A program made the position numbers and the translations under genes. From Clostridiales bacterium (GTDB taxonomy: Bacteria; Bacillota; Clostridia; Christensenellales; Borkfalkiaceae), in assembly GCA_022508285.1 (NCBI GenBank), contig JAFLVN010000010.1, forward strand, positions 1 through 51,483: a DNA stretch of 51,483 nucleotides, written 5' to 3'. Positions 1,567 through 45,161 of this stretch are shown here, piece after piece; position 1 is the stretch's first letter; every line of letters starts with the position of its first letter. The notes beneath the pieces were generated by a model that saw only the letters and a list, made by a program, of their open reading frames with translations, made no database searches and was not told where the DNA came from.

Positions 1567-2730
1567 ATGAAAAAATTGTTTGGTATTATTTCTGCCTGTC
1601 TTGCCGTTGCCGCTTCGGGTGCGACGTTGACGGGTGTAACAACCGCAAGCGCCGCTGAATTGGCGTTAACTAAGGGCTGCAAGTCTGCCTACCTTATGGA
1701 TTTTAACTCCAAAGAGTGTATTTATAAAGAGAATGAAACTGCAAGAATGCCGATTGCCAGCGTATGCAAAGTTATGACTCTGACTCTGTGCTTTGATGCA
1801 ATTGAGGATGGAAAAATTGCGCTGGACAGTATTGTTACCGTAAGCGATAATGCTGCCGGTATGGGCGGTTCGCAAGTATTTTTGGAGAGTGGACTCGAAT
1901 ACTCTGTTGACCAGTTGATTAAATCTATTATCGTTTGCTCTGCGAACGACAGTTGCGTAGCTCTTTCCGAGACGATCTCGGGAAATGAAGATGAGTTCGT
2001 TGCAAAAATGAACAAAAAGGCGGAGGAACTCGGCTGTACCGATACACTTTTTGCCAACTGCACGGGTCTGCCGAGGGAAACTCAGTATTCATGCGCCAAA
2101 GACGTAGCTTTAATGTTCGGAAATCTTTTATCACACGAAGATTATTTCAATTACAGCAAAATCTGGCTTGAAGATTTTGAGCACCCCGATAACAGAACAA
2201 CTTCGATGACAAACACAAATAAGCTTATAAGAAAGTACGGCTTCTGTGACGGAGGAAAGACGGGCTTCACCAACGAAGCGGGTTTCTGCCTTGCTTCAAC
2301 GGCAAAGAAGGACGACTTGAGGCTTATATCGGTTGTACTCGGTGCATCCTCAAGCGACGACAGATTCGATTCGACAATAAAGATGTTTGATTACGGATTT
2401 GCAAATTATAAGAACAGAATCGTACTCGATAAAAACGTAACTCTGAACGATGAGTTTGCGGTAGTCGGCGGAAAGAAGGAGAGTTTTGCAGTCCGCCCCG
2501 AAAGAAATTGCTACGTGTTCTCGGCAGTAGACAAAACTCCCGAAATCACTCATAACGTAATTTCCTATAAGGTCAAAGCGCCTGTTGCATGCGATCAGGT
2601 AGTTGGCGAAATTGAAGTATTCAAAGACGGAGTATTAATTGACAGAGTAAACGTTGTTGCGGCTGAATCGGTTAAAAAAGCAAGCTTCGGCGACAACTTC
2701 AGAAGAAACGCAAGAGAATGGGCTCTTTAA
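1567..2730 (+). CDS. dacF: D-alanyl-D-alanine carboxypeptidase (DacF/PBP5 type, serine peptidase S11)
   Basis: 387 residues with a signal peptide (basic MKK, hydrophobic core, cut near ASAAE at about 30). It has the three S11 motifs: SVCK at 65-68 (nucleophile Ser65 and Lys68), SAN in CSANDSC, and KTG in GGKTGFTNEAG. The C-terminal part is the beta-rich PBP5 domain. The enzyme trims the terminal D-Ala from peptidoglycan stem pentapeptides outside the membrane. The C-terminal amphipathic anchor is not obvious. It lies 28 bases after the SpoIIM-like gene and ends before a strong hairpin. The gene symbol is by context and is tentative because a second S11 enzyme lies at 6493. Confidence 0.9.
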   Translation: MKKLFGIISACLAVAASGATLTGVTTASAAELALTKGCKSAYLMDFNSKECIYKENETARMPIASVCKVMTLTLCFDAIEDGKIALDSIVTVSDNAAGMGGSQVFLESGLEYSVDQLIKSIIVCSANDSCVALSETISGNEDEFVAKMNKKAEELGCTDTLFANCTGLPRETQYSCAKDVALMFGNLLSHEDYFNYSKIWLEDFEHPDNRTTSMTNTNKLIRKYGFCDGGKTGFTNEAGFCLASTAKKDDLRLISVVLGASSSDDRFDSTIKMFDYGFANYKNRIVLDKNVTLNDEFAVVGGKKESFAVRPERNCYVFSAVDKTPEITHNVISYKVKAPVACDQVVGEIEVFKDGVLIDRVNVVAAESVKKASFGDNFRRNAREWAL

Positions 2731-2751
2731 TTTAATAATTCAAGATATAGA

Positions 2752-2782
2752 GGCGCACGGCATTGCCGTGCGCCGTATTTTG
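2752..2782 (+). terminator. Intrinsic terminator after the carboxypeptidase gene
   Basis: GGCGCACGGC (2752-2761), loop ATT, GCCGTGCGCC (2765-2774), then GTATTTTGTG. The 10-bp GC-rich stem is perfect; the T-tract is short. Confidence 0.75.
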
Positions 2783-2814
2783 TGTATTTATATTATATTG
2801 ATAAGTTAAAATAT

Positions 2815-2843
2815 TTGACTATTAAGCAGTGGTTTGGTAAAAT
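2815..2843 (+). promoter_or_regulatory. Sigma-A promoter for the M50-scpA-scpB operon
   Basis: TTGACT (2815-2820), 17-nt spacer, TAAAAT (2838-2843). The predicted transcript start, about 2850, is 2 nt before the only usable start codon (ATG 2852), so the first gene should have almost no leader. Confidence 0.7.
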
Positions 2844-2851
2844 AAATATGT

Positions 2852-3592
2852 ATGGTATATACGGTTCTTTACTATCTAACGGCGATAATTGCCGTAATAT
2901 TCGTATTTGCTCCACACGAGTTTGCGCATGCGTACGTCGCATACAAATGCGGCGACGCTACGGCAAAGATGCGCGGCAGGCTGACGTTGAACCCCTTGAA
3001 GCATCTCGATTGGTACGGATTTTTACTTTGCGCGATCGCCGGCTTCGGCTGGGCAAAGCCCGTGCCTATCAATCCCGCCAACTTTAAAAATTACCGGAAA
3101 GGATTGTTTTTAACTGCTATTGCCGGCGTTGTTACAAATTATATAATTGCTTTTATCGGATATCTGCTTTTTGTTGTTGTGTTCAAATATGCGGCAAACG
3201 GTTTGATAGGTTACTTTTTAAATCAACTTTTCTTTAACATTTTTCTTTTTAATCTCGGCGTTTTTATATTCAATCTTCTTCCGCTGTATCCTTTGGACGG
3301 TTTCAGAGTAGTGGAGTCGCTGACAAGGGAAATTAATCCCGTGCATAGATTTTTGAGAACTTACGGAATGTATATTCTTATTGCGCTTGTTCTCGAAAGC
3401 TTTTTGTGTGGAGCGTTGGTTGACTATGCCGGAATTACTTTTGCAAAATACTTCGATATTTTAGGCTACGTTCAATGGTTTGCGATTAATATTTTAGGCT
3501 ATCCCATAAGATTGGTCTGGAATGCGATTTTCGGTTTTGGCGTTCCGTCGCTCATGCCGCTTGATTTTAACGTGCTTGATTTATTTCATTAA
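2852..3592 (+). CDS. Site-2 protease family (M50) membrane metalloprotease
   Basis: 246 residues with several membrane segments. HEFAH at residues 22-26 is the zinc-binding HExxH, and the LLPLYPLDGFR segment supplies the third ligand (Asp in the NPDG-type motif, here PLDG). This short form without a PDZ domain is common beside scpA/scpB in Bacillota; its substrate is unknown. A stop lies three codons upstream (2843-2845) and no other start precedes HEFAH, so the start is fixed at 2852. No Shine-Dalgarno sequence precedes it, consistent with a leaderless mRNA. scpA follows after 16 bases. Confidence 0.9.
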   Translation: MVYTVLYYLTAIIAVIFVFAPHEFAHAYVAYKCGDATAKMRGRLTLNPLKHLDWYGFLLCAIAGFGWAKPVPINPANFKNYRKGLFLTAIAGVVTNYIIAFIGYLLFVVVFKYAANGLIGYFLNQLFFNIFLFNLGVFIFNLLPLYPLDGFRVVESLTREINPVHRFLRTYGMYILIALVLESFLCGALVDYAGITFAKYFDILGYVQWFAINILGYPIRLVWNAIFGFGVPSLMPLDFNVLDLFH

Positions 3593-3608
3593 TTGATTTG
3601 GATAAATA

Positions 3609-4424
3609 ATGGCAAAAAATAATTACGAAAATTTTGAATCGGTTGTAGACTACAACACGGTGCTGGACGACTTTGAAGGTCCTCTCGATTTACTTCTGCA
3701 CCTTATAAATATTGCGCAGATAAATATCGAGGAGGTATTCGTTTCAAAGGTCACCGACCAGTTTTTAGACTACATTGAGTATATGAAAACCCAGCCCCGC
3801 CGCGACGTTGACAAGGAGAGCGAGTATCTTGCGCTTGCCGCACAGATTGTGTATATCAAGTCCAAAAGCATGGTGCCCGTAGTCGACGTTATGGGCGAGG
3901 AAATGGGCGGAGCAGACGAAGAGGAGCGTGCTTTCATCGAACAGCTCAAACAGCGTGAATTTGAGCTTATAAAGAGTGAAACTCCTAAGTTAAAAGAGCT
4001 TGAAACGATAGGATATTACTTCAAAGAACCTGATAAATCGCTCAATTCGGTAAGAATTGTTTATAAAGACTTCACTATAGACGGACTTTTAAAGGCGTTT
4101 GCAACCATGATGATGAGGAACGAGGGTTTGCAACGTGAGCGGGAGAATATAAAGGAAATCCCCAAGGACGAATTTACCGTAGAGGAAAAGGTCAAATTTA
4201 TAAGAGAAAAGCTGGTTGAAGTTCAGGAAGTTGAGTTTGAAAGCCTGTTTTCAACCTTTTCGAGAAACGAAGTTATAACAACTTTTCAGGCGCTTTTGGA
4301 GATGCTCAAGCATCAGTTTATAATGGTTGAACAGCGGGACAGCTTCGGCGCAATCAACATCAAACTCAATCCCGAGTGGGACTTAAAGGAAATAACAGAT
4401 GAGCAATTTGACGAATATAATTGA
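3609..4424 (+). CDS. scpA: Segregation and condensation protein A (kleisin of SMC-ScpAB)
   Basis: 271 residues. The N-terminus DFEGPLDLLLHLI (about 18-30) is the ScpA signature that contacts the Smc neck. It is followed by LALAAQIVYIKSKSMVP, a charged middle, and a C-terminal winged helix (VITTFQALLEMLKHQ). ScpA bridges the Smc heads and recruits ScpB to compact and separate sister chromosomes. The 3' end overlaps scpB by 26 bases, which suggests translational coupling. Confidence 0.95.
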   Translation: MAKNNYENFESVVDYNTVLDDFEGPLDLLLHLINIAQINIEEVFVSKVTDQFLDYIEYMKTQPRRDVDKESEYLALAAQIVYIKSKSMVPVVDVMGEEMGGADEEERAFIEQLKQREFELIKSETPKLKELETIGYYFKEPDKSLNSVRIVYKDFTIDGLLKAFATMMMRNEGLQRERENIKEIPKDEFTVEEKVKFIREKLVEVQEVEFESLFSTFSRNEVITTFQALLEMLKHQFIMVEQRDSFGAINIKLNPEWDLKEITDEQFDEYN

Positions 4425-5115
4425 GGCGATAATTTTTGCTTCAGGCGAGGCTGTGCCCGTAAAATACATAGTGGAAAAGCTCGGGTGTTCGTTGAAGGAA
4501 GTAAACGCAGCAGTCGCCGAGCTGAAAGAAAAATACGGCGAAGACTGCGGAATAAATCTTCTCACGTTCAACGGCAAAGTACAGTTTGCCTCTAATCCGA
4601 AGTTTAAACAGCAAATCTCCGAGGTACTTATTCCTATAAAAGAAAAGGAATTTACAAAAACAATTTTGGAGTGCGCCGCAATTATTGCCTATAAACAGCC
4701 GATAACTAAGCCCGAGCTCGAAGAAATAAGGCAGGTTAGCTGCGACTACGCCATACATACTCTCTTAGAGCTTGAAATGATAGTGCCCTGCGGCAGAAAA
4801 GACGCTGTGGGCAAGCCCATTTTATATGCGACAACCGATAACTTTTTAAAGAGGTTCAAGCTCAATTCCATTGACGATTTACCCGACTACGACGAACTGA
4901 TGGCTCAGATTGCCGAGCTCAATAATCAGATTCTCAACGATGACGAAGACGACGGCAACTACCTGTACAAAAAGGACGAGTACGTTGAGCCGGAAGCAGA
5001 GGCTAAGCCTAAACGCTCTGCGCCCGAAAAGGCTCCCGAGCCCAAGACAACCGAGGACGGCTACGAGCTTCCCGACTTCATTTCCGATGACGACGACGTA
5101 ATAAAAATAGATTGA
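4399..5115 (+). CDS. scpB: Segregation and condensation protein B
   Basis: 238 residues with two winged-helix regions: IIEAIIFASGEAVPV at the start, and ILECAAIIAYKQPITKPELEEIR around 93-115, a strong ScpB signature. After about residue 175 it has an acidic, probably disordered tail (DDEDDG..., PEPKTTEDG..., SDDDDV), longer than the minimal family form. It dimerises and binds ScpA. The start inside scpA is supported by the family N-terminus. Confidence 0.95.
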   Translation: MSNLTNIIEAIIFASGEAVPVKYIVEKLGCSLKEVNAAVAELKEKYGEDCGINLLTFNGKVQFASNPKFKQQISEVLIPIKEKEFTKTILECAAIIAYKQPITKPELEEIRQVSCDYAIHTLLELEMIVPCGRKDAVGKPILYATTDNFLKRFKLNSIDDLPDYDELMAQIAELNNQILNDDEDDGNYLYKKDEYVEPEAEAKPKRSAPEKAPEPKTTEDGYELPDFISDDDDVIKID

Positions 5116-5174
5116 TTAATCTGTTAAGTTGTAATTGAAAATACGATAAACATTAATTTAAGCATTAAACTATT

Positions 5175-5480
5175 ATGGATATTTATAATGAAATCGTAAA
5201 TGAGAAATTTAAAATAATTTCTCCCCAAAAATATGCGTTAGAGTTGAAAGAACGATTTTTAAATAATCCTGCATTATGGTATGAAAGAATTTCACCTAAA
5301 AGCAAAGCTGATGAATTTATAAAAGCTACTAACTGTGATTATTCAGAAATTTGGCACGATCATTGTGCGGTTTGTTTTAAACCGATAGATAAAGATACTA
5401 CGGAAAATGTTTACTTATCAGAAGATGAGTTTACTTGGGTTTGTGAAAGCTGTTTTAAAGAAATTCAATTAAGAAAATAG
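5175..5480 (+). CDS. Small hypothetical protein with two CxxC pairs
   Basis: 101 residues, not recognised. The N-terminal half is helical and charged. The C-terminal half has CAVC (about 71-74) and CESC (about 92-95), spaced like a zinc ribbon, with His and Trp nearby (EIWHDHC, FTWVC). By eye the gene is more AT-rich than its neighbours. It lies between scpB and a DUF2953-like gene, where related genomes usually have no gene, and is followed by its own terminator. It could be a recent insertion; no function is claimed. Confidence 0.65.
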   Translation: MDIYNEIVNEKFKIISPQKYALELKERFLNNPALWYERISPKSKADEFIKATNCDYSEIWHDHCAVCFKPIDKDTTENVYLSEDEFTWVCESCFKEIQLRK

Positions 5481-5534
5481 TTAGATAAATTTCAAATTAA
5501 CATTAGTCTCCACGAGACTTGTACAATATGTTTT

Positions 5535-5566
5535 AAGCCCGACTGCTTATTGCAGTCGGGCTTTTG
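5535..5566 (+). terminator. Intrinsic terminator
   Basis: AAGCCCGACTGC (5535-5546), 5-nt loop, GCAGTCGGGCTT (5552-5563), then TTG. It ends the M50-scpA-scpB-CxxC unit. Confidence 0.85.
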
Positions 5567-5614
5567 CTTAAATAAATATTGTATATTTAATTTTCTGTTA
5601 CAGATAATAATGTT

Positions 5615-6151
5615 ATGAATGAAGCAATGGTGTACTTGTCCGCCGTGGGCTTTGCTCTTGCGCTGTTTCCCGTACATTTTTATAACTACATTTATATAAA
5701 TACGGAAAGCAAATATGTAGGCTTTAATGTCAGCGTATACAGATTTTTTAGGTTTTACAACGCAAATACCGTAGAAAATAAGCCAGGCGAAATGCAGGTA
5801 AACGGCAAAAGCAAAAAATTTGACCTTCAACAAACTAAACGCAACGCTTACAGAATTTTCAATAAGCTGTGTATATTTAAGGTTGTACAGCTCGGAGATT
5901 TCGGACTTGTAAAGCAAAACAATGCTTACTTCGTGCTGGCGCAGAATGCTTTGACTACGGCAATTTACAAATTCATTCAGATAAACGGCGGTTATGCTAA
6001 ACTGAGAAATTACACAATTTTAAACCATGAACATGAATTTATAAGGTATTACTGTAAAGTAGTGACGATTATGAATTCGTTAGTAGTAGCAAAAATTTTA
6101 TTAATTCTTTTATGGGGGAAGTTAAATGCACTCAAAAATCAAGAAAAATAA
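5615..6151 (+). CDS. DUF2953-like protein
   Basis: 178 residues. There is a hydrophobic N-terminal segment (about 5-22), a polar central part rich in Tyr, Phe and Asn, and a hydrophobic C-terminal helix (VVAKILLILLWGK). Its position directly before a GerW/YtfJ gene and after scpB is the normal position of DUF2953 proteins in Clostridia, and the general layout fits. Sequence identity to the family is not something I can confirm by eye. It overlaps the next gene by 26 bases, so the two are coupled. Confidence 0.5.
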   Translation: MNEAMVYLSAVGFALALFPVHFYNYIYINTESKYVGFNVSVYRFFRFYNANTVENKPGEMQVNGKSKKFDLQQTKRNAYRIFNKLCIFKVVQLGDFGLVKQNNAYFVLAQNALTTAIYKFIQINGGYAKLRNYTILNHEHEFIRYYCKVVTIMNSLVVAKILLILLWGKLNALKNQEK

Positions 6152-6500
6152 GCAAAACGATTTCGATACACCCGCAATTTCAATAGACAAAGTTGCCGAT
6201 GCCGACACGGTTATCGGCAAGTCTATTATAACCGTAAGCGGAGCGCAGGTTATTCCGCTTTCTTCCGTTACCGTTGTAAATTTGAGCGGCGGCGGAGAGT
6301 ACGGCGACGTTAAAACCTATAAGGAGTCCGAAGGCTTCAAGCTCGCCGGCGGCAACGGCACGGTTGTAACAGTCAAACCCAAAGGTTTTCTTGTAGACGA
6401 CGGCAACGGTTGTAGACTTTTAAAAATGGATGAAGGAGCGTTGGACGCTTTGGTTGAAAAAACGGGAGAATTGGTCCATAAACTTACGGATAATGGTTAA
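6126..6500 (+). CDS. GerW/YtfJ family spore-type protein
   Basis: 124 residues. After a basic start it reads DADTVIGKSIITVSGAQVIPLSSVTVVNLSGGGEYG, then a Gly-rich stretch (GGNGTVVTVKPKGFLV) and a C-terminal helix. This is the GerW (YtfJ) fold pattern: G-x-x-I, then VIPxS-V, then GGG, then KPxxFLV. In spore formers the protein is needed for germination, but homologues also occur in non-sporulating lineages. Its stop overlaps the ATG of the next gene (ATGGTTAA). Confidence 0.85.
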   Translation: MHSKIKKNKQNDFDTPAISIDKVADADTVIGKSIITVSGAQVIPLSSVTVVNLSGGGEYGDVKTYKESEGFKLAGGNGTVVTVKPKGFLVDDGNGCRLLKMDEGALDALVEKTGELVHKLTDNG

Positions 6501-7506
6501 AAAGTGGGCAATATTTTGTAGTTTGGCGCTCTTAATATTTGTATCTGTCGGGATAGGTACGGGATATGCCAATGCGGAAAGCACTTCCGCCGAAATTGCA
6601 ATGGAGCTTACAACCGGCACGGTTTTAGAGGAACGCAATGCCGACGTGCAGCTGCCTATGGCAAGCACCACGAAGATAATGACGGCAATAATCATTATCG
6701 AGGATTGCGACCTTGACGAAGTAATTACCGTGCCGAACGAAGCTGTAGGAGTGGAAGGCTCAAGCATTTATCTTAAAAAGAATGAGCAGATTGATATAAG
6801 GGATTTAGTTTACGGATTAATGCTGCGCTCAGGCAACGACAGCGCAACGGCGCTTGCAATTCATCACAGCGGAAACATAGAAAAATTTGCCGAAGTCATG
6901 AATGAAAGGGCAAAGGAATTCGGAGCAGAAAACACAAACTTTAAAAATCCAAGCGGACTGCCTGATAGCGAGCACTATACGACCGCAAGAGATTTATGCC
7001 AGATAACACGCCATGCAATGCAGAACGAAACTTTCAAAGAAGTAGTTTCTACAAAGAATTACAGCGGAAAGTTCCGTACCTTTTCAAACAAAAACAAGAT
7101 GCTCTACAATTATGAAGGAGCAAACGGAGTAAAAACAGGTTACACCGTAAAGGCGGGCAGATGTCTTGTTTCCTCTGCGGAGAGGAACGGCATGGACGTA
7201 ATCTGCGTTGTATTAAACTGTCCCGACATGTACGAGCGTAGCTCAAAAATTTTAGATACCTGTTTAAACGGATATAAACTTGTAAAATTAGATGAAAATG
7301 CGCTATTTATGTCAGGCAAAGTACTTTGCAAAACTGCAAAATCAGTTGATTTTGTTATTAAATGCGACGAAAAACTGAATTATATTGTGAAGCCTTTAAG
7401 CGAAAATAAAAAAGTAAAGCGTGGGGATCTTGTTGCAAAACTTGAAATTGTCGGGCAAAATGGCTTGATTTTATCGGAGAATTTATATAGTATTATTGAC
7501 AGATAA
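6493..7506 (+). CDS. dacB: D-alanyl-D-alanine carboxypeptidase (serine peptidase S11)
   Basis: 337 residues from ATG 6493. A longer frame to 6430 exists, but the ATG at 6493 places a signal peptide at the N-terminus (MVKKWAIFC..., cut near ANAE) and overlaps the previous stop by 8 bases. Motifs: STTK in PMASTTKIM, SGN in LRSGNDSA, KTG in GVKTGYTVKAG. The C-terminal domain is present. It is paralogous to the enzyme at 1567. Its position after the GerW gene suggests a cell-wall or cortex role; the symbol is tentative. Confidence 0.9.
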   Translation: MVKKWAIFCSLALLIFVSVGIGTGYANAESTSAEIAMELTTGTVLEERNADVQLPMASTTKIMTAIIIIEDCDLDEVITVPNEAVGVEGSSIYLKKNEQIDIRDLVYGLMLRSGNDSATALAIHHSGNIEKFAEVMNERAKEFGAENTNFKNPSGLPDSEHYTTARDLCQITRHAMQNETFKEVVSTKNYSGKFRTFSNKNKMLYNYEGANGVKTGYTVKAGRCLVSSAERNGMDVICVVLNCPDMYERSSKILDTCLNGYKLVKLDENALFMSGKVLCKTAKSVDFVIKCDEKLNYIVKPLSENKKVKRGDLVAKLEIVGQNGLILSENLYSIIDR

Positions 7507-7526
7507 AATTGTTAAGGTACTTATAA

Positions 7527-8225
7527 ATGAGGATAAACAGATTTCTTGCGGCGGCGGGAGTTGCTTCAAGGCGGGAGTGCGATAAGCTGATCGCCGACGG
7601 GAAAGTTAAGGTTAACGGCAAAATGGCAACGCTTGGGCTTGAAGTAAAAGATGAGGACGAAGTATTCGTCGACGGCAAAAAAGTAGCAATTCAGAAAAAC
7701 GAATACTACATTTTAAATAAGCCCAAGGGCTATATCTGCTCCGTTTCAGACAATAAGGGCAGAAAGACCGTTATGGATTTAATGCCTGCAAACGTGGGCA
7801 GAATTTATCCCGTCGGTCGCCTTGATTACGACAGCGAGGGTTTACTTATATTAACTACCGACGGCGAGCTCGCCCAAAAACTTACTCATCCTTCAAACGA
7901 GATTCCCAAAACTTATCTTGTTAAAATAGAGGGTACGCTCACCGAGGCGGCTTTAAATCCCATAAGAAGCGGCATAGAAATCGATGGATACGTGACAAAA
8001 AAGTGCAAGGCGCACATTGTTGAGACTAATAAGGCGTATACCAAAGTCCACATAACCATTACCGAAGGTAAAAACCGTGAAGTAAGAAAAATGTTTGCGG
8101 CAATCGGTAAGGAAGTGCAGCTTTTGAAGCGTATAAAAGTAGGCGAGCTGACCTTGCGTGGACTCGACAGAGGCGCATACAGAAAACTTTCAAAACCTGA
8201 AGTTGACTATCTTATGTCATTATAA
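7527..8225 (+). CDS. rluB: rRNA pseudouridine synthase, RsuA/RluB family
   Basis: 232 residues. An N-terminal S4 RNA-binding domain (MRINRFLAAAGVASRRECD, then VKVNG) is followed by the catalytic core. The active-site Asp lies in GRLDYDSEGLL (about residues 94-104), and the family ending has EGKNREVRKM. It isomerises uridine in rRNA, probably 23S helix 89-90 if RluB. It begins 20 bases after the carboxypeptidase and ends at a shared terminator. Confidence 0.92.
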   Translation: MRINRFLAAAGVASRRECDKLIADGKVKVNGKMATLGLEVKDEDEVFVDGKKVAIQKNEYYILNKPKGYICSVSDNKGRKTVMDLMPANVGRIYPVGRLDYDSEGLLILTTDGELAQKLTHPSNEIPKTYLVKIEGTLTEAALNPIRSGIEIDGYVTKKCKAHIVETNKAYTKVHITITEGKNREVRKMFAAIGKEVQLLKRIKVGELTLRGLDRGAYRKLSKPEVDYLMSL

Positions 8226-8253
8226 AAAACGGGCGGAATTTACCGCCCGTTTT
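8226..8253. terminator. Bidirectional terminator between rluB and tmcAL
   Basis: AAAACGGGCGG (8226-8236), 6-nt loop, CCGCCCGTTTT (8243-8253). The A and T runs on either side serve both convergent genes. Confidence 0.88.
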
Positions 8254-8254
8254 G

Positions 8255-9412
8255 TTATATAAATTTTACGTAATCGAAGCCGCTTTCGGGCTGTTTTGCT
8301 ATAAAATTCCAAATTTTATACGAATTTTCGTCCGTTTTAAAGCATTTTTGTGCGGTTGGGTTTAAATCTTTCAAATTCCGTTGTTTCATAATTACAGGGA
8401 ATTCCGACTTTGCAAGTGCCGAAAGCATTTGGGCATCGTCTTTTTTTGCTGCGAGCGGTTTAATATAGAGAGATGATTGCAAGTAACTTTCGCAGTCGTT
8501 GCTATATAAATCCAATAGATTTGCGCAAAGTATGCGTTTAATCCTTGAAGCGGAATATCTGCGTGCGGTGGCACTTTCGATAATCTCGCCAAACGGAAGA
8601 AAAGCGGAGCTTATAAGTTTGTTTTCCAAGCCTTCGTTGCAACCGTAAATTTTTTGAAGATTTTCCGAGGCGGATTGCAGTAATTTGAAGCGTAAAAGCT
8701 CTTCAAAACGGTTATTTTCCTCCGAAAAATCCTTAAAACCGGCAAAAACGCAGTCGGGAAGATTATCTTTAATCAGCGGGTTGTTCGGATTATTTCTTAT
8801 TGCGCTCGCCGATGAAAAATTTAATTTTAACTCAGTATCGCCGTATTCTGCGCCTATGCGCTCAATGGGCAGAATTTCAATTTTACTTTTAAATTTTAAA
8901 ATTGATTTTGCGTATTCAATTCCCAAAATATTATTGGGGCGGGAGAGTAGATCTTTTTCGCCTCCGCATGCTTCAAACGCTGCCGCATAACTTCTTATAT
9001 AGCTTTCGCCTGCCGCAAGTTTTTCGCTTAAAACTGTTTTAAACTGTCCGCTTTCTTCGTTCAAAAGTATTGCCGCTTTAATAAAATCGGTTTTGGCGCT
9101 CTCGCACCCGAAAGCAAGGGTAGTAACCTCGGGTATCGAACTCAGAATTTTAATTGCGCCTCTTGCAAAAATTTCGGCGGGAGCAACGGAAAAAGTTGCT
9201 GGAAGCTCAATCACCCCGTCTGCGCCGCAAAGTATTGCATGTCGGGCACGCATAAACTTGTCCGATACGCATATATCGCCCCTTTGGGTGAAGCTTCCGC
9301 TCATTATGCAAAGAATCTTATCGCAACCTGAAAGCTCTTTTGCTCTTTGCAAAAGATATTTATGACCGTTATGGAATGGATTAAATTCACAAATTATTCC
9401 ACAAATTCTCAT
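8255..9412 (-). CDS. tmcAL: tRNA(Met) cytidine acetate ligase (YlbM family)
   Basis: 385 residues. The N-terminus ICEFNPFHNGH (7-17) is the nucleotidyltransferase HxGH motif of the family, followed by MSGSFTQRGD and the substrate-loop region FSVAPAEIFARG. TmcAL uses acetate and ATP to form N4-acetylcytidine at the wobble base of elongator tRNA-Met. It is transcribed away from pta-ackA, whose product is acetate; the neighbourhood recurs in Clostridia. The start CAT at 9410-9412 is the first Met. Confidence 0.92.
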   Translation of the reverse strand: MRICGIICEFNPFHNGHKYLLQRAKELSGCDKILCIMSGSFTQRGDICVSDKFMRARHAILCGADGVIELPATFSVAPAEIFARGAIKILSSIPEVTTLAFGCESAKTDFIKAAILLNEESGQFKTVLSEKLAAGESYIRSYAAAFEACGGEKDLLSRPNNILGIEYAKSILKFKSKIEILPIERIGAEYGDTELKLNFSSASAIRNNPNNPLIKDNLPDCVFAGFKDFSEENNRFEELLRFKLLQSASENLQKIYGCNEGLENKLISSAFLPFGEIIESATARRYSASRIKRILCANLLDLYSNDCESYLQSSLYIKPLAAKKDDAQMLSALAKSEFPVIMKQRNLKDLNPTAQKCFKTDENSYKIWNFIAKQPESGFDYVKFI

Positions 9413-9419
9413 TTTAAAC

Positions 9420-9448
9420 TTTACAATCTTAAAAAACTGTTATATAAT
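9420..9448 (+). promoter_or_regulatory. Sigma-A promoter for pta-ackA
   Basis: TTTACA (9420-9425), 17 nt, TATAAT (9443-9448). It lies in the 112-bp gap to tmcAL, giving a leader of about 70 nt before pta. Confidence 0.7.
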
Positions 9449-9524
9449 ATATCCGTTAATGTATCCGATAGACATATTATATATTATTCGGTCGGAAAAA
9501 TAAAGCATTTTAAGGAGAAATGAT

Positions 9525-10529
9525 ATGTCATTACTTGACGAAATCAAGGCAAAGGCGGCTTCCCGTAAAAAGACTATAGTTCTTTGCGAGGGAGAGGACA
9601 AGCGTGTAGTTGAGGCGGCAGCCCGCATCACCAAGGAGGGTATTGCCAAAATAGTTCTTGTCGGCAACAAGGAAGAGTGCAAAAAGGTTGCTCCCGGCGT
9701 TGACCTTACAGGAATTACGCTTATTGACCCGTTAACTTCGGAAAAGACCGCAAAATATGCGGAAATTTTATATGAAGCAAGAAAATCAAAGGGAATGACC
9801 GAAGAGCAGGCTAAAGAGCAGGCTAAGGACAGAACGATGTTCGGTGCGCTCATGCTTAAAGCCGGTGACGTTGACGGCTACGTTTCGGGCGCTTGCCATT
9901 CAACGGCAAACACCCTGCGCCCCGGCTTGCAGGTAGTTAAAACTGCTCCCGGCATCAAAACCGTATCGAGCTGCTTCATTATGATAGCGCCCGATAAGAG
10001 CAATCCCTACAATCCCGACGGCGTTGCTGTATTTGCGGATTGCGCTATAAATATCGAGCCTACGGCTGAACAGCTTGCAGATATCGCTATAAGTTCGGCT
10101 AAGACCGCAAAGGATATCGCAGGTATCGAGCCCAAAGTCGCAATGCTTTCATTCTCCACAAAGGGCAGCGGAAACGACGACAAGTTCACACAGTCCGTTC
10201 CCAAAGTTCAGCAGGCTACGGCTATTGCCAAGGAAGCCGCTCCCGACCTCGCACTTGACGGTGAGTTCCAGTTCGATGCGGCTGTCGCACCCGAAGTAGG
10301 TCAGCTCAAAGCTCCCGGCTCAAAGGTTGCAGGTCATGCAAACGTATTTGTATTCCCCAATATCAATGCAGGTAATATCGGCTATAAAATTGCACAGCGT
10401 TACGGCAACTACATGGCAATCGGTCCTATCTGCCAGGGCTTTGCAAAGCCCTTGAACGACCTTTCGAGGGGCTGCAACGTTGAAGATATAGTTGCAACCG
10501 TTGCTGTTACGGCATTACAGGCTGACTAA
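9525..10529 (+). CDS. pta: Phosphate acetyltransferase
   Basis: 334 residues, the usual length of the short single-domain Pta. The frame covers the whole PTA/PTB fold, including the typical VDGYVSGACHSTANTLRP and PDGVAVFADCAIN segments and the C-terminal GPICQGFAKPLNDLSRG. It converts acetyl-CoA and phosphate to acetyl phosphate in the cytoplasm. The strong ribosome site AAGGAGA is 8 nt before ATG. ackA follows after 30 bases. Confidence 0.97.
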   Translation: MSLLDEIKAKAASRKKTIVLCEGEDKRVVEAAARITKEGIAKIVLVGNKEECKKVAPGVDLTGITLIDPLTSEKTAKYAEILYEARKSKGMTEEQAKEQAKDRTMFGALMLKAGDVDGYVSGACHSTANTLRPGLQVVKTAPGIKTVSSCFIMIAPDKSNPYNPDGVAVFADCAINIEPTAEQLADIAISSAKTAKDIAGIEPKVAMLSFSTKGSGNDDKFTQSVPKVQQATAIAKEAAPDLALDGEFQFDAAVAPEVGQLKAPGSKVAGHANVFVFPNINAGNIGYKIAQRYGNYMAIGPICQGFAKPLNDLSRGCNVEDIVATVAVTALQAD

Positions 10530-40372: not shown

Positions 40373-42811
40373 ATGAGCAATACCGCTATCACCGAAAAAG
40401 AAGTCAAGGAACAAATTAAAGGCAAGCTTGCCAGATATTTCGGAGTTGCCCCTGGCGAGGCTTCCAAAGACCAGATTTATAAGGCCGTGGTTATGGTAGT
40501 CAGGGATATCCTGCTTCAAAAACGTGTACAGTTTAATAAAAAGGTCAGAGCAAAACGAGCAAAAAAGGTTTACTATCTCTGCATGGAATTCCTTATGGGG
40601 CGTTCGCTTAAAAACAGTCTGTTTAATTTAAGCGTTACTCACGAATTTGACAAGGCTGTGGCGTCTTACGGACTTAAACTTGAAGATTTATACGAGCTTG
40701 AACCTGATGCGGGATTGGGTAACGGCGGTTTGGGAAGGCTTGCCGCATGCTTTTTGGATGCGCTTGCAACAGGCGATTATCCCGCTATGGGCTACTCGTT
40801 GAGATATGAATACGGATTATTCAAACAGAAGATAGTGGACGGCTGGCAGATAGAACTGCCCGATGCGTGGCTGCCCGGCGGCGAAGCGTGGCTCACGCAG
40901 AGAACGGATAAAAACTTTATTGTCCGCTTCAACGGTCAGATTGACGAGCAGTGGACGGAAAACGGACTTCAGACAAACTATATCAACTGCACCGAAATTC
41001 AAGCCGTAGCATACGACATGATGGTTTCGGGCAAGGATAGCGAGGCAGTTTCCGTTTTGAGACTTTGGAAAGCTAAGCCCGTGCAGGACTTCAACATGAA
41101 GCTCTTTTCGCAGGGTGAATATTATCAGGCAATGACGGGCGATAATGACGCCGATCTGCTAACAAAAGTTCTCTATCCCGCAGACAATCACACGGCAGGT
41201 AAATCGCTGAGGCTCAAGCAACAATATTTCCTCTGTTCGGCGTCAATACAGAACATAGTGGAAGATCACAAGCACAGATACGGTGATTTAAGAGATTTAC
41301 CCAAGCTTGCGGCAATCCATCTCAACGATACGCATCCCGCAATGGCAATTCCAGAGCTGATGAGAATACTTATCGACGAGTATTACTACGACTGGGATCA
41401 GGCGTGGGCAATTACAACTTCAACCTGCGCATATACCAACCACACCGTGCTTGCAGAAGCGCTTGAAACGTGGAGCGAGGATTTAATTTCCCGCATAATT
41501 CCGAGAATTCATTCAATTATCAAGGAAATTAACAGAAGGCTGTGCGAGCAGCTTTGGAACAGATTTCCCGGTGAATGGATTAAAATTTCACGCATGTCGA
41601 TTATCGAGCACGATCGCATCAAAATGGCAAATCTGTCCGTTTACGGCGGCCACAGCGTAAACGGCGTTTCGGCTCTGCACAGCGAAATAATCAAAACTTC
41701 CGTATTCAAAGATTTTTACGATTTTTCACCCGAAAAATTTACCAACGTCACAAACGGTATAGCTCACAGGCGCTGGCTCAATCAGTCAAATCCCGAGCTT
41801 GCCGAACTTTTAAACGAGTGTATAGGTGATTCTTATATATTGAACGGAGCTGCGCTTGCCGAGTTTAAAAAGTATGAAAACGATACGACTGTTTTAAAAA
41901 GACTTGACGAAATCAAGCTTTTAAAGAAAAAGCAGTTTGCCGAATACGCAAAAAAGAAGCAGGGAGTCATAATTGACCCTAATACAATGTTCGACGTTCA
42001 GGCAAAGCGTTTACACGAATATAAACGCCAGCTTTTAAACGTACTTAACATAATCGACACTTACCTTGATTTGCGTGACAATCCCGAACTCGACGTGTTG
42101 CCTAAAACTTATATTTTCGGCGCAAAAGCGGCTCCGGGATACGACATGGCAAAGAAGATAATACAGCTTATCAATTATCTTTCGGAAGATATTAAAAAGT
42201 ATCCGGAAATTAATAAAAAGCTCAACGTCGTCTATATGGAAGACTACAACGTCACCATGTCGGAAAAGCTCATGCCGGCGTCTGAAGTTTCCGAGCAGAT
42301 TTCACTTGCAGGCAAGGAAGCAAGCGGCACAGGCAATATGAAGTTTATGGTGAACGGTGCGCTTACAATCGGCACGCTTGACGGTGCAAACGTTGAAATG
42401 GCCGAAGCTGTCGGCGAAGACAACATATTTATATTTGGTTACAAGTCGAACGAAGTTGACGAGATTTGGCGCAACGGCTACAGCTCAAGTAAATTCTACA
42501 ACGAATCACCTAAATTAAGAAGAATTATCGAAGCGCTGATTTTAGGATTCAACGGTAAATCTTTTGCTGAAATCGCAAATTATCTGTTAACGGCAATTCC
42601 CGTAGCCGACCCGTATATGTGCATGGCAGACTTTGCCGCATACAGCAATAAGCAGCATGAAATTTCAGATCTCTATGCAACCGACAAAACCAAATGGAAC
42701 CAAATGTCTTTAAGAAACATTGCGGCTTCGGGAATTTTTGCGGCGGACAGAAGCATCTCGGAATACGCTGCAAATATCTGGAATTTAAAAAGTCTAAAAC
42801 ATAATAAGTAA
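40373..42811 (+). CDS. glgP: Glycogen phosphorylase (GT35)
   Basis: 812 residues. GLGNGGLGRLAACFLDA, HLNDTHPA, NGIAHRRWL, and the PLP-binding Lys in GTGNMKFMVNGALTIGTLDGANVE. It releases glucose-1-phosphate from glycogen ends. Last gene of the operon; 18 bases after glgA with an AGGAGA ribosome site. Confidence 0.97.
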   Translation: MSNTAITEKEVKEQIKGKLARYFGVAPGEASKDQIYKAVVMVVRDILLQKRVQFNKKVRAKRAKKVYYLCMEFLMGRSLKNSLFNLSVTHEFDKAVASYGLKLEDLYELEPDAGLGNGGLGRLAACFLDALATGDYPAMGYSLRYEYGLFKQKIVDGWQIELPDAWLPGGEAWLTQRTDKNFIVRFNGQIDEQWTENGLQTNYINCTEIQAVAYDMMVSGKDSEAVSVLRLWKAKPVQDFNMKLFSQGEYYQAMTGDNDADLLTKVLYPADNHTAGKSLRLKQQYFLCSASIQNIVEDHKHRYGDLRDLPKLAAIHLNDTHPAMAIPELMRILIDEYYYDWDQAWAITTSTCAYTNHTVLAEALETWSEDLISRIIPRIHSIIKEINRRLCEQLWNRFPGEWIKISRMSIIEHDRIKMANLSVYGGHSVNGVSALHSEIIKTSVFKDFYDFSPEKFTNVTNGIAHRRWLNQSNPELAELLNECIGDSYILNGAALAEFKKYENDTTVLKRLDEIKLLKKKQFAEYAKKKQGVIIDPNTMFDVQAKRLHEYKRQLLNVLNIIDTYLDLRDNPELDVLPKTYIFGAKAAPGYDMAKKIIQLINYLSEDIKKYPEINKKLNVVYMEDYNVTMSEKLMPASEVSEQISLAGKEASGTGNMKFMVNGALTIGTLDGANVEMAEAVGEDNIFIFGYKSNEVDEIWRNGYSSSKFYNESPKLRRIIEALILGFNGKSFAEIANYLLTAIPVADPYMCMADFAAYSNKQHEISDLYATDKTKWNQMSLRNIAASGIFAADRSISEYAANIWNLKSLKHNK

Positions 42812-42827
42812 AAAATTACAACAAAAG

Positions 42828-42851
42828 CCGAAGATTTTTCTTCGGTTTTTA
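42828..42851 (+). terminator. Intrinsic terminator of the glg operon
   Basis: CCGAAGA (42828-42834), TTTT loop, TCTTCGG (42839-42845), then TTTTTATT. Confidence 0.85.
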
Positions 42852-42907
42852 TTGTACTATGTCTGACATAACAACTGTTAAAATACAAATTTTTAATAAA
42901 ATGAACT

Positions 42908-42994
42908 TCAAATTTGTAAATTACATAACGATATAAAAATAATATAAAATTCCGCAATTTTCAGATTATAAATGCAAATTTCAATTAAAATCAC
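42908..42994 (-). CDS. Possible 28-residue hydrophobic small protein
   Basis: On the minus strand AGGAGGT lies 7 nt before a GTG start (42994). The frame reads VILIEICIYNLKIAEFYIIF and then eight more residues to TGA, a short peptide with a hydrophobic core. I do not recognise it, and no promoter is evident. The wider gap 42852-43146 is AT-rich with a 9-bp inverted repeat (TACAAATTT, 42884-42892 and 42910-42918). The good ribosome site is the main support; chance is possible. Confidence 0.25.
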   Translation of the reverse strand: MILIEICIYNLKIAEFYIIFISLCNLQI

Positions 42995-43028
42995 CTGAAT
43001 TACCTCCTGATCTATCTGTTTTTGGGTT

Positions 43029-43064
43029 TAACTATTCGTAAAAGCTGTGTTTTACGAATAGTTA
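43029..43064. repeat. Perfect 15-6-15 inverted repeat: candidate dif-like recombination site
   Basis: TAACTATTCGTAAAA (43029-43043), GCTGTG (43044-43049), TTTTACGAATAGTTA (43050-43064). There is no U-tract, and no gene ends nearby. Two arms around a 6-bp centre match the geometry of Xer sites (11-6-11). It lies 117 bp upstream of a XerS-like recombinase gene, the position of difSL next to xerS in streptococci. Confidence 0.5.
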
Positions 43065-43146
43065 GGCGTATTTATGTATTCCACCATTAAGCCAAAGTTG
43101 GGGGTATGCGAGTTGAGTTTTGAGCAATCAAATCCTATTACTCCAT

Positions 43147-43175
43147 TTGACTTATATTTCAATTTGTTTTATAAT
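43147..43175 (+). promoter_or_regulatory. Sigma-A promoter of the recombinase gene (leaderless)
   Basis: TTGACT (43147-43152), 17 nt, TATAAT (43170-43175). The expected transcript start (about 43182) coincides with the ATG. Confidence 0.75.
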
Positions 43176-43181
43176 TAAATT

Positions 43182-44237
43182 ATGGCAACGGGAAATTATT
43201 ACGTTCAGAGAAACAATAAAAATATTGAAACAATCGAGCGACTTTTGGACGAGGAATTGCCTTCCTTTTGCTACGATTATTTTTTGGCAATTGACGGTCA
43301 GACATCCACTCTAACCCGTTTAAACTACGCTCACGATTTAAAAATATTTTTCTACTTTCTTCAAGAAAAAAAATTCAGAAAATCAAAACAGGTTAAAGAG
43401 TTTACTCTTGAAGATTTAGAATCGGTTACGAGCAACGACGTTGAATATTTTTTGAGCTACCTCTCCCACTATTTTTATGCGGACAAAGGACATACCTGCA
43501 ACGAGCGGGCAAAAGCTCGTAAGCTTTTTTCAGTTCGGGCTATGTTCAAATTCTTTTTCAATAAAGGATTTATCAGCGTTGACAATACAGCAAAGGTTGC
43601 CACTCCCAAGCTCCACGAAAAACCTATAATCAGACTTGATAAAAACGAAGTTTTCAATATTCTCGATATTGCCGAAAGCGGCAGCGGGCTCACCCCTCAC
43701 CAAATGGCTTATCACGAAAAAAATAAGGTTAGGGACAGCGCAATTTTAACTTTGTTTTTGGGCACAGGAATCCGTATTAGCGAGCTTGTCGGGCTGAACA
43801 ACGACGATTTGAATTTTAAGGACAATTCCTTTATCGTTACCCGTAAGGGCGGCAGTAAATCCATTTTATATTTTGACGACGCCGTTGCCGACGCATTAAA
43901 GCGCTATCTCGAATATAAAGAAAATGGGTCTGAAATTCTTGAAGAGCCCAACGCACTGTTCATTTCCAATAACAGAAAGCGCATAACCGTTCGTGCGGTT
44001 GAGAATCTTGTTAAAAAATATGCCAAGATAGTCTCCCCACTCAAAAAAATTTCGCCCCATAAGCTCCGCTCCACTTACGGTACGCAACTCTATCAGGCGA
44101 CGGGCGATATTTATATTGTTGCCGACGTTCTCGGTCACAAGGACGTAAACACTACACGCAAGCACTATGCTGCAATTTCAGACGAAAACCGCCGCGGCGT
44201 AGTCGGCAAAGTAAAACTGAAACGTGACGACGAGTAG
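43182..44237 (+). CDS. Xer-type tyrosine recombinase, XerS-like
   Basis: 351 residues. An N-terminal SAM-like DNA-binding domain (TLTRLNYAHDLKIFFYFL) precedes the catalytic domain with all six residues: Arg198 (GTGIRISEL), Lys222 (TRKGGS), His293 and Arg296 (SPHKLRSTYG), His319 (LGHKDVNTT), and nucleophile Tyr329. The length, RDSAILTLFLGTGIRISE and TRKGG segments resemble streptococcal XerS, which resolves chromosome dimers alone. A stop two codons upstream fixes the start near 43182, and no Shine-Dalgarno sequence is seen. A phage-type integrase is the alternative, but no phage genes are near. Confidence 0.85.
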   Translation: MATGNYYVQRNNKNIETIERLLDEELPSFCYDYFLAIDGQTSTLTRLNYAHDLKIFFYFLQEKKFRKSKQVKEFTLEDLESVTSNDVEYFLSYLSHYFYADKGHTCNERAKARKLFSVRAMFKFFFNKGFISVDNTAKVATPKLHEKPIIRLDKNEVFNILDIAESGSGLTPHQMAYHEKNKVRDSAILTLFLGTGIRISELVGLNNDDLNFKDNSFIVTRKGGSKSILYFDDAVADALKRYLEYKENGSEILEEPNALFISNNRKRITVRAVENLVKKYAKIVSPLKKISPHKLRSTYGTQLYQATGDIYIVADVLGHKDVNTTRKHYAAISDENRRGVVGKVKLKRDDE

Positions 44238-44248
44238 CGATTATTAAT

Positions 44249-44279
44249 AAAAAACACGGCTATCAAAGCCGTGTTTTTT
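44249..44279. terminator. Bidirectional terminator
   Basis: AAAAAACACGGCT (44249-44261), loop ATCAA, AGCCGTGTTTTTT (44267-44279), serving the recombinase and the convergent Cys-rich gene. Confidence 0.92.
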
Positions 44280-44286
44280 AATATTG

Positions 44287-44457
44287 TTACTTTTTATCGT
44301 CAAGAATTATTCCGTCTATCTTAATCACTGCGTCGTCACGGATATCTAGGCACTGACCGCAATTATCGCACACCTTGTCAGGATTCAGGTCACAAACGTC
44401 ACACTCCCCGCAGTCAATACATTCTCTATCAAATAAAACGCACTCTTTTTTAGCCAT
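44287..44457 (-). CDS. Cys-rich mini-protein (ferredoxin- or zinc-like)
   Basis: 56 residues from ATG at 44457 (MAKKECVLFDREC), preceded by AGAGGTG; a longer frame to 44505 has no ribosome site. Eight Cys lie in the first 37 residues, mostly in paired form: CIDCGECDVC then CDNCGQC, followed by an acidic tail. This looks like an Fe-S or Zn binding module; the function is unknown. It is divergent from lexA with about 116 bp between starts. Confidence 0.75.
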   Translation of the reverse strand: MAKKECVLFDRECIDCGECDVCDLNPDKVCDNCGQCLDIRDDAVIKIDGIILDDKK

Positions 44458-44476
44458 TATCCGCACCTCTGTTACA

Positions 44477-44505
44477 ATAATATCACATATATTTTTAAAA
44501 AACAA
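44477..44505 (-). promoter_or_regulatory. Probable promoter of the Cys-rich gene
   Basis: Minus strand TTGTTT (genomic 44500-44505), 17 nt, TATTAT (genomic 44477-44482). Confidence 0.5.
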
Positions 44506-44516
44506 ATAAAAATTCG

Positions 44517-44551
44517 GAACAAGCGTTTGATTTTTATATAAACATATGTTA
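44517..44551 (+). promoter_or_regulatory. Two candidate LexA (SOS) boxes in the lexA promoter
   Basis: GAAC-AAGC-GTTT (44517-44528) fits the clostridial LexA motif GAACNNNNGTTT as I recall it, and overlaps the -35. AAAC-ATAT-GTTA (44540-44551) is a degenerate Bacillus-type box lying across the -10. Autoregulation of lexA is general. Confidence 0.6.
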
Positions 44552-44555
44552 CAAT
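44527..44555 (+). promoter_or_regulatory. Sigma-A promoter of lexA
   Basis: TTGATT (44527-44532), 17 nt, TACAAT (44550-44555); TGAGAGGTG ribosome site precedes ATG 44574. Confidence 0.68.
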
Positions 44556-44573
44556 AAATTTGAGAGGTGTTTT

Positions 44574-45161
44574 ATGAGAAAACTGAATAATGACGAAAAA
44601 GTATACCGTTTTATTATGGACTTTATAAACGAAAACGGCTATGCACCCACTGTGCGTGATATCTGCAAGGGTTGTGATATTAAGTCCACCGCCACCCCCT
44701 ATCAGATTATGAACAGACTTGTTGAGCGGGGACTTTTAAAAAAGACGGGCAATAAAAACCGTGCGCTATCGCTTGCAAAGCAAGGTCCTACTTTAAACGT
44801 TCCCTTAGTCGGTACGGTTGCGGCAGGTCAGCCCATACTCGCAAATGAAAATTGCGAGGAGTATTTTTCTATCCCGAGTAACTTTTTTGAGGGCGATGAC
44901 TTATTTATGTTGAACGTTAAAGGTTCCTCTATGATAAAAATCGGTATGTTTGACGGCGATAAAGTAGTCGTTAAAAAGCAGGAAACTGCCGATAACGGCG
45001 ATATCGTTGTTGCTCTCGTTGACGACTCCGCCACTGTTAAACGCTTTTTTAAGCGCAACGGAAAAATTATTCTCCACCCCGAAAACGACGATATGGAAGA
45101 TTTTATTTTGGACGACGTTCAAATTCTCGGAAAAGTCGTCGGATTAATGAGAAATATATAA
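44574..45161 (+). CDS. lexA: SOS repressor LexA
   Basis: 195 residues. An N-terminal winged helix (GYAPTVRDICKGCDIKSTATPY) and the S24 peptidase domain with the self-cleavage bond Ala84-Gly85 (TVAAGQPI), nucleophile Ser119 (GSSM) and Lys156 (ATVKRF). RecA filaments trigger its cleavage and induce DNA-repair genes. Confidence 0.95.
   Translation: MRKLNNDEKVYRFIMDFINENGYAPTVRDICKGCDIKSTATPYQIMNRLVERGLLKKTGNKNRALSLAKQGPTLNVPLVGTVAAGQPILANENCEEYFSIPSNFFEGDDLFMLNVKGSSMIKIGMFDGDKVVVKKQETADNGDIVVALVDDSATVKRFFKRNGKIILHPENDDMEDFILDDVQILGKVVGLMRNI

Follow-up and report, generated by a model that had tools for sequence, protein, structure and literature searches.

Results

A tyrosine recombinase gene with a perfect inverted repeat upstream

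We analyzed a 51,483-bp stretch of DNA (hereafter the window; contig JAFLVN010000010.1 of the Clostridiales assembly GCA_022508285.1) that carries a XerS-like tyrosine recombinase gene and, upstream of it, a candidate dif site for chromosome dimer resolution. The gene occupies positions 43182..44237 of the forward strand and encodes 351 amino acids (PF00589, 113.6 bits; best NCBIfam model, XerS). A first-pass annotation, made from the sequence alone, had described a perfect 15-bp inverted repeat around a 6-bp centre, 117 bp 5' of this gene, and direct reading confirmed it. On the same strand, the left arm TAACTATTCGTAAAA (43029..43043), the asymmetric centre GCTGTG (43044..43049) and the right arm TTTTACGAATAGTTA (43050..43064) form the 36-bp repeat TAACTATTCGTAAAA-GCTGTG-TTTTACGAATAGTTA, in which arm complementarity is 100% and from which 117 bp lead to the recombinase ATG at 43182. 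Both arms fit the arm pattern of 82 distinct sites described below, and the assignment of the centre as the presumed crossover region draws on the centre pattern of the same sites and on hybrid sites found in relatives.

Within the window, the only perfect arms of at least 14 bp with a 6-bp spacer were those at 43029-43064; base composition predicts about 6e-5 repeats with 15-bp arms and this spacer. No second copy of the 36-mer at 3 or fewer mismatches was found in the 1.47-Mb assembly of the same genome (97 contigs, 97% complete). The gene order is glgP, site and recombinase, a small Cys-rich open reading frame (ORF), and lexA. The glgP-like ORF stops at 42811 and has a separate hairpin of its own at 42828-42845, and the repeat does not lie at the end of any long ORF. 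The earlier claim that the repeat is not a terminator was right in that no long ORF ends there, but the supporting statement that it lacks a U-tract is not fully accurate, as a simple terminator scan flagged the tail GTATTTATGT that follows the repeat. Finally, no Rfam family matched positions 42500-44800, and the 370 bp upstream of the recombinase gene matched no phage record.

The site and the gene occur together in the genus and the order

To describe the distribution of the site, we used the exact core TTCGTAAAA-N6-TTTTACGAA. This core was present exactly once in 73 of 93 genus genomes, absent from 20 and never present twice, and the reversed-pattern control gave no match in the 93 genomes. 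Together with the search of the window's own assembly, these results indicated that the site is single copy. The recombinase gene was found at E<=1e-40 in 75 of the 93 genomes, and the two features were distributed as 70 genomes with both, 15 with neither, 5 with only the gene and 3 with only the site (Fisher p 1.3e-10, which is only a guide because the genomes are related). These four counts, and the tallies 22/60, 16+2+2 of 20 and 69/81 given below, were made by hand. The core starts 56 to 8,049 bp upstream of the gene within the genus; site and gene are 8 kb apart in genome G099 and on different contigs in G008.

We also examined the order with 32 genomes, one per family. The gene was present at E<=1.2e-57 in 29 of them, with a fragmented copy in G077. 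A site with a 6-bp centre was located 2.6 kb or less upstream of the gene in 24 of these 29 genomes, 21 with two or fewer arm mismatches and 3 less perfect, and elsewhere in two others, namely 54 kb from the gene in G050, where the arms are perfect, and on another contig in G065. Thus, the site is conserved in relatives, being present in 26 of the 29 gene-bearing order families as well as in the 73 genus genomes. The arm sequences vary by family (e.g. ATCTTTTCGCAAAA, ATCTTTGCGCAAAA and AACTATTCGCAAAA), yet they are mostly symmetric. Among four loci titled Lachnospiraceae (L213-L216), one had a site (L214, 11 of 15 pairs).

As a separate observation, contigs C5-C9 of G050 contain many related palindromes, TCCGCAAAA-N6-TTTTGCGGA and TCCGAAAAA-N6-TTTTTCGGA, several of them clustered, which coexist with a single TTCGCAAAA-type dif.

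The site lies at the GC-skew switch, the likely replication terminus

In the window, the peak of the cumulative GC skew was 1.9 kb from the site. We extended this analysis to 43 loci, a non-random set consisting of the window, G088, G047 and 40 flanks chosen by contig room and order-level spread. The skew was positive to the left and negative to the right of the site (up to 10 kb each) in 36 of the 43 loci, compared to 1 of 58 control windows taken from three genomes, and the cumulative-skew maximum within the stretch was 600 bp or less from the site in 18 of the 43. In two genus contigs of 824 kb and 656 kb (49% and 61% sampled) the skew switch coincides with the site. Furthermore, in the single-contig genomes G078 and G080, taken as circles, dnaA is located 0.47 and 0.49 of the length from the site. 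These results place the site at the skew switch and, in G078 and G080, opposite dnaA; the finding expected to refute the annotation, a locus far from the skew switch, was not obtained. How the centre is oriented with respect to the replichores was uninformative, since the terminus looks alike after reverse complementation and the contig strand of a metagenome-assembled genome (MAG) is arbitrary.

The two arms change together around a conserved centre

We collected 83 sites and discarded one (in L254) as a chance match, leaving 82 distinct sites. Because the search pattern fixed much of the inner arm, so that inner complementarity came partly from selection, only the outer positions were used as a test. 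At arm positions 10-14, 343 of 410 cells were complementary, while 2000 shuffles, which ignore descent, averaged 238 and never exceeded 267. Perfect 14-bp arms were observed in 45 of the 82 sites, and position 15 was complementary in 46, giving a strongly conserved arm of about 14 bp. G-T pairs accounted for 13 of 121 non-complementary cells, no excess over chance mismatches, which speaks against an RNA stem. When each site was turned, where possible, so that CA occupied centre positions 3-4, C was found at position 3 in 78 and A at position 4 in 76 of the 82 sites. Arms that remain alike while changing together would be the expected trace of one protein binding both sides.

The recombinase is XerS-like and retains the catalytic residues

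Residues R198, K222, H293, R296, H319 and Y329, which we take to be the catalytic positions of a tyrosine recombinase, were invariant in 22 aligned sequences including that of the window, in agreement with the intact catalytic set noted in the first pass. Against the XerS model (NF003462), the protein scored 190.3 bits and seven relatives scored 183.5-218.4 bits; the curated cut-off is 267. The designation XerS-like is therefore appropriate by the curated model, and assignment to XerS proper is not. In a phylogenetic tree, 25 Clostridia sequences grouped into a single clade (97/99) that excluded three proteins scoring above the XerS cut-off; the tree is unrooted and carries a long-branch warning. 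The predicted structure resembled the XerA and XerH folds by model comparison. Sequence similarity to XerH was weak (28.6 bits over the catalytic part), and an archaeal XerC-like protein (75.5 bits) and XerD (72.5 bits) scored better. A phylum-wide scan with the XerS model at a strict E-value yielded 3 of 149 genomes and missed the window's own protein, so it is uninformative on the spread of this recombinase clade.

The window's own genome has four PF00589 matches, the recombinase at 43182 and three proteins of 308, 363 and 406 amino acids that look like integrases by their length and sequence. An FtsK gamma domain was also present (76.4 bits). Regarding a separate XerC/XerD pair, none was seen, with no search made for a conventional dif: none of 81 genomes, the window's own among them, had a XerD match above the model's cut-off, a strict one that only 4 of 14 control genomes pass. 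In 760 kb from two genus contigs, strand-biased 7- and 8-mers, which are mixed with coding bias, contained no convincing FtsK-orienting polar sequences (KOPS) or architecture imparting sequences (AIMS), and three KOPS-type motifs had little strand bias in the same 760 kb. On contig C3 of this genome (L003:246-1367), an ORF that reads as reverse-transcriptase-like adjoins the 308-residue integrase-like recombinase.

Lone arm copies at the recombinase promoter

A promoter for the recombinase is predicted on the forward strand, with a -35 hexamer TTGACT at 43147..43152 and a -10 hexamer TATAAT at 43170..43175 (11 of 12 consensus matches, 17-bp spacer). TTGACT-like hexamers were seen in several genus sequences upstream of the gene. 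From this prediction, transcription would start at about the ATG and yield a leaderless mRNA, which places the 36-bp repeat outside the transcript.

A lone TTCGTAAAA arm was present 28-76 bp before the start codon in 22 of 60 distinct genus upstream sequences, where 0.1 would be expected, given that the word occurs 10 times in 800 kb from two genomes; the arm in L193 is part of a degenerate dif and was excluded from the 22. The lone arms have a single orientation throughout and mostly lie directly 5' of the TTGAC hexamer. Their occurrence was related to the distance of the dif site: 0 of 15 upstream sequences with the site at 130 bp or less had a lone arm, 6 of 24 with the site at 131-300 bp, and 16 of 20 with the site farther off or not seen, two more of which had a copy with a 9-bp centre. 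As the upstream sequences share descent, these counts are not independent. The 9-bp-centre copies were found in G008 (L016/L192), with the 6-bp site on another contig, and in G083 (L108:550), with the 6-bp site 5.8 kb away; such copies at the promoter are perhaps operators that no longer recombine. At the order level, the lone arms of L075 and L218 were identical to the dif arm of their own genome. Altogether, this arrangement suggests autoregulation of the recombinase gene through the lone arm or the site.

Several other features were observed at these loci. L090 is another locus with a lone arm at the recombinase promoter, and the G008 and G083 loci have in common a further dif-like site with the centre AGAATG (CATTCT). 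In the window, the small Cys-rich ORF and lexA lie 3' of the recombinase, at 44287-45161, and the proximity of lexA raises the possibility of a link between dimer resolution and the SOS response.

Hybrid sites and phage-like elements

In G099, a hybrid site and an intact dif bracket about 7.6 kb of DNA (L256:2356 and L256:10001; element 2356-10024). The hybrid has the centre of the intact dif (CACAGC) and one good arm, and its other arm is foreign. Proteins encoded by the element include a DUF2726 protein, a phosphoadenosine phosphosulfate (PAPS)-reductase-like protein, a P-loop protein and a Rep_1 replication protein, and other ORFs look like a helix-turn-helix repressor and coat-like membrane proteins. 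No integrase was recognisable among the ORFs of at least 80 amino acids, six of which were run against Pfam, and no viral relatives of the Rep protein were found. Two proteins are shared with G042 (L086/L087) at 52-53% identity.

The P-loop protein of these elements was not named by Pfam, PHROGs or the names of its relatives. We examined a structural model of P0121, which is 98% identical to the G099 protein (predicted local distance difference test score, pLDDT, 91). Assembly ATPases of the Zot type from Inoviridae ranked 2, 3 and 5 in the viral library, and a Zot domain ranked 2 in the PDB. Because the template modeling (TM) scores of the Zot matches were only about 0.4-0.5, alongside those of other packaging ATPases, we only infer that the G099 element is filamentous-phage-like. 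In other systems, inoviruses are known to integrate at dif with the host XerC/D recombinases (PMC5666396). The G099 element resembles integrative mobile elements exploiting Xer recombination (IMEX) in two respects: it is inserted at dif between a hybrid site and an intact one, and none of its ORFs of at least 80 amino acids is a recognisable integrase. A search of the open-licence literature for inovirus, Clostridia and XerC together retrieved no report. The hybrid sites of G099, G042 and G007 are probable products of natural recombination, for which we infer the enzyme, and the site appears to have served as an insertion point for phage-like elements.

A scan of viral contigs with the core gave 22 stretches, of which six or seven have arms that are symmetric beyond the core. 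The virus-labelled contigs L290, L292, L298-L302 and L286 contain such dif-like sites with other centres, for which either host contamination or dif-carrying phages may account, and L286 also encodes a recombinase of 29.5% identity beside its site.

Discussion

The results support the proposal of the first-pass annotation that this is a dimer-resolution locus with a single recombinase: the site is single copy, it marks the skew switch, it co-occurs with the gene and its arms co-vary. Further support comes from the FtsK gamma domain of this genome and from the hybrid sites of three relatives, which retain one arm together with a dif-type centre. The 36-bp repeat is very probably the single dif of the chromosome, at which the adjacent XerS-like recombinase would act alone to resolve dimers. 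According to this proposal, the recombinase would bind both identical arms, cleave at the edges of the 6-bp centre and assemble as a tetramer on two sites. Recombination within the centre would convert chromosome dimers into monomers, with dimer resolution as the benefit, presumably under the control of FtsK. With identical arms, strand exchange could not be ordered by arm asymmetry as it is in XerH/difH; its order would have to be set by the asymmetric centre, as in Cre/loxP. Control of its own promoter, through the site or the lone arm, is a probable second function of the recombinase.

Several observations weigh against this interpretation. Gene and site were both missing from 15 genus genomes, including G020, G086 and G010, which are 97%, 96% and 93% complete; such joint absence in MAGs may reflect assembly gaps. 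Five genus genomes had the gene without the exact site and three the site without the gene. In the order, the gene was not found in 3 of 32 families (G055, G066 and G074), and no site was found in the gene-bearing genomes G061, G076 and G077, the last of which has the broken gene. The skew sign test failed in 7 of the 43 loci (G002, G028, G059, G063, G070, G087 and G096), where G096 has a right flank of only 243 bp and the other six have a right-side skew of about 0 to +0.024. Among the hybrids, that of G042 has the centre GTTGTG, one base apart from the GCTGTG of its own dif, and that of G007 (L088) has the centre GCTGTG in an assembly with no exact full site. The G042 and G007 elements were not assembled through, leaving G099 as the only one bracketed on both sides, and a related element in G083 (L108), with a P-loop protein of 48% identity, has no clean hybrid flank. 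Finally, XerD-like genes scoring 200-280 bits are present in 11 of the 81 genomes.

We considered whether the repeat might instead serve the recombinase gene only as an operator, RNA hairpin or terminator. Its location close 5' of the gene in many genomes, the lone arms at the promoter in the genus and the outcome of the simple terminator scan would fit such a role, yet within the genus as much as 8 kb can separate the full site from the gene, the distance is 54 kb in G050, and in G008 and G065 the site is on another contig; it nevertheless remains single and coincides with the skew switch where this was tested. With no excess of G-T pairs, no Rfam match around the locus and a predicted transcript that begins downstream of the repeat in the window, we regard a solely regulatory repeat as very unlikely, while a regulatory role alongside recombination is likely. 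A mobile-element integrase or phase-variation switch, with the repeat as its attachment or inversion site, would likewise involve a tyrosine recombinase, and elements do sit at the site in some relatives. Such a gene is extremely unlikely here, given that 69 of the 81 genomes (own included) match the recombinase at E<=1.2e-57, that 57 of 75 loci have lexA nearby and 47 have glgP (with double counting of some genomes), with the window gene lying between the two, that there is exactly one site, at the skew switch, and that the region upstream of the gene has no match to phage records. The XerD-like genes mentioned above, together with the strictness of the XerD cut-off, might point to dimer resolution by a XerC/XerD-type pair acting at a different dif, with this locus as an accessory system. 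However, these genes are sporadic, with one per genome except in G024, none of 200-280 bits is listed for the window's genome, and the three other tyrosine recombinases of that genome look like integrases; we find this explanation barely credible.

If the repeat is the chromosomal dif, a broader and tentative picture can be drawn, one that we rate as possible rather than probable. The whole order of Clostridia would have a loxP-like symmetric dif and one recombinase of its own clade, with six central base pairs setting the order of exchange and the control by FtsK, the lone arm mediating self-silencing, and integrase-less filamentous phages of Gram-positive hosts entering through the site. Because both arms have changed without coming to differ from each other, what the centre and FtsK contribute stands apart here from any effect of unlike arms, and a small, defined set of sites would allow a direct test of how a symmetric Xer complex selects the strand to cut first. 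The system would also offer, for a large group of Clostridia that are mostly uncultured and whose genomes are fragmented, a marker of the terminus and a means of resolving dimers, and phage-like elements apparently exploit a dif that is served by a single recombinase.

Comparison with known Xer systems

The principle of a dif served by one recombinase is already known; what is new here is this form of it, its spread over the order, the arm copies at the promoter and its apparent use by phage-like elements. Excerpts of published papers describe XerS/difSL, XerH/difH, archaeal XerA and XerL/dif as systems of this type (PMC5357621, PMC2731167, PMC9765430). The XerS/difSL system of streptococci and lactococci (PMC5357621) shares with the window a single recombinase of about 350 amino acids and a site adjoining its gene, and XerS is the top-scoring NCBIfam model for the window protein. 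It differs in that the window protein scores below the XerS cut-off and the three proteins that pass it fall outside the Clostridia clade (subject to the long-branch warning), and in that difSL has imperfect, unequal arms and an 11-bp centre, in contrast to perfect arms and a 6-bp centre in the window. We found no report of XerS dimer resolution in Clostridia or Lachnospiraceae in the open-licence literature, and PMC3025954, as excerpted, gives predicted dif sites of the XerCD type.

In XerH/difH of Helicobacter and Campylobacter, the arms of difH are asymmetric (PMC2731167, PMC5241119), unlike the identical arms of the window site, and the order of cleavage is set by this asymmetry; for XerCD the order comes from the unlike XerC and XerD arms (PMC5241119). 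The fold of the window protein is similar to that of XerH, with the weak sequence similarity noted above. XerL/dif of the Legionellales (PMC9765430) is similar in having a lone recombinase, long uninterrupted arms and use by an integrating element, and differs in having arms of 10 and 12 bp in Legionella and Coxiella versus 14-15 bp in the window clade. In Legionella pneumophila, dif and xerL are more than 400 kb apart (PMC9765430), unlike in the window. The earlier view that perfect symmetry is unusual needs qualification in light of these arms, since long uninterrupted arms are not unique.

XerCD/dif shares with the window system a 6-bp centre, one site at the terminus and the presence of an FtsK gamma domain, and is distinguished by two recombinases acting on two unlike arms, with XerD above its cut-off in none of the 81 genomes examined here. 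Cre/loxP, a phage plasmid system with no known link to the terminus or to FtsK, has identical arms around an asymmetric centre and uses one recombinase, as proposed for the window; its centre is 8 bp, in contrast to 6 bp. Among the single-recombinase dif sites compared, the window site has the longest symmetric arms.
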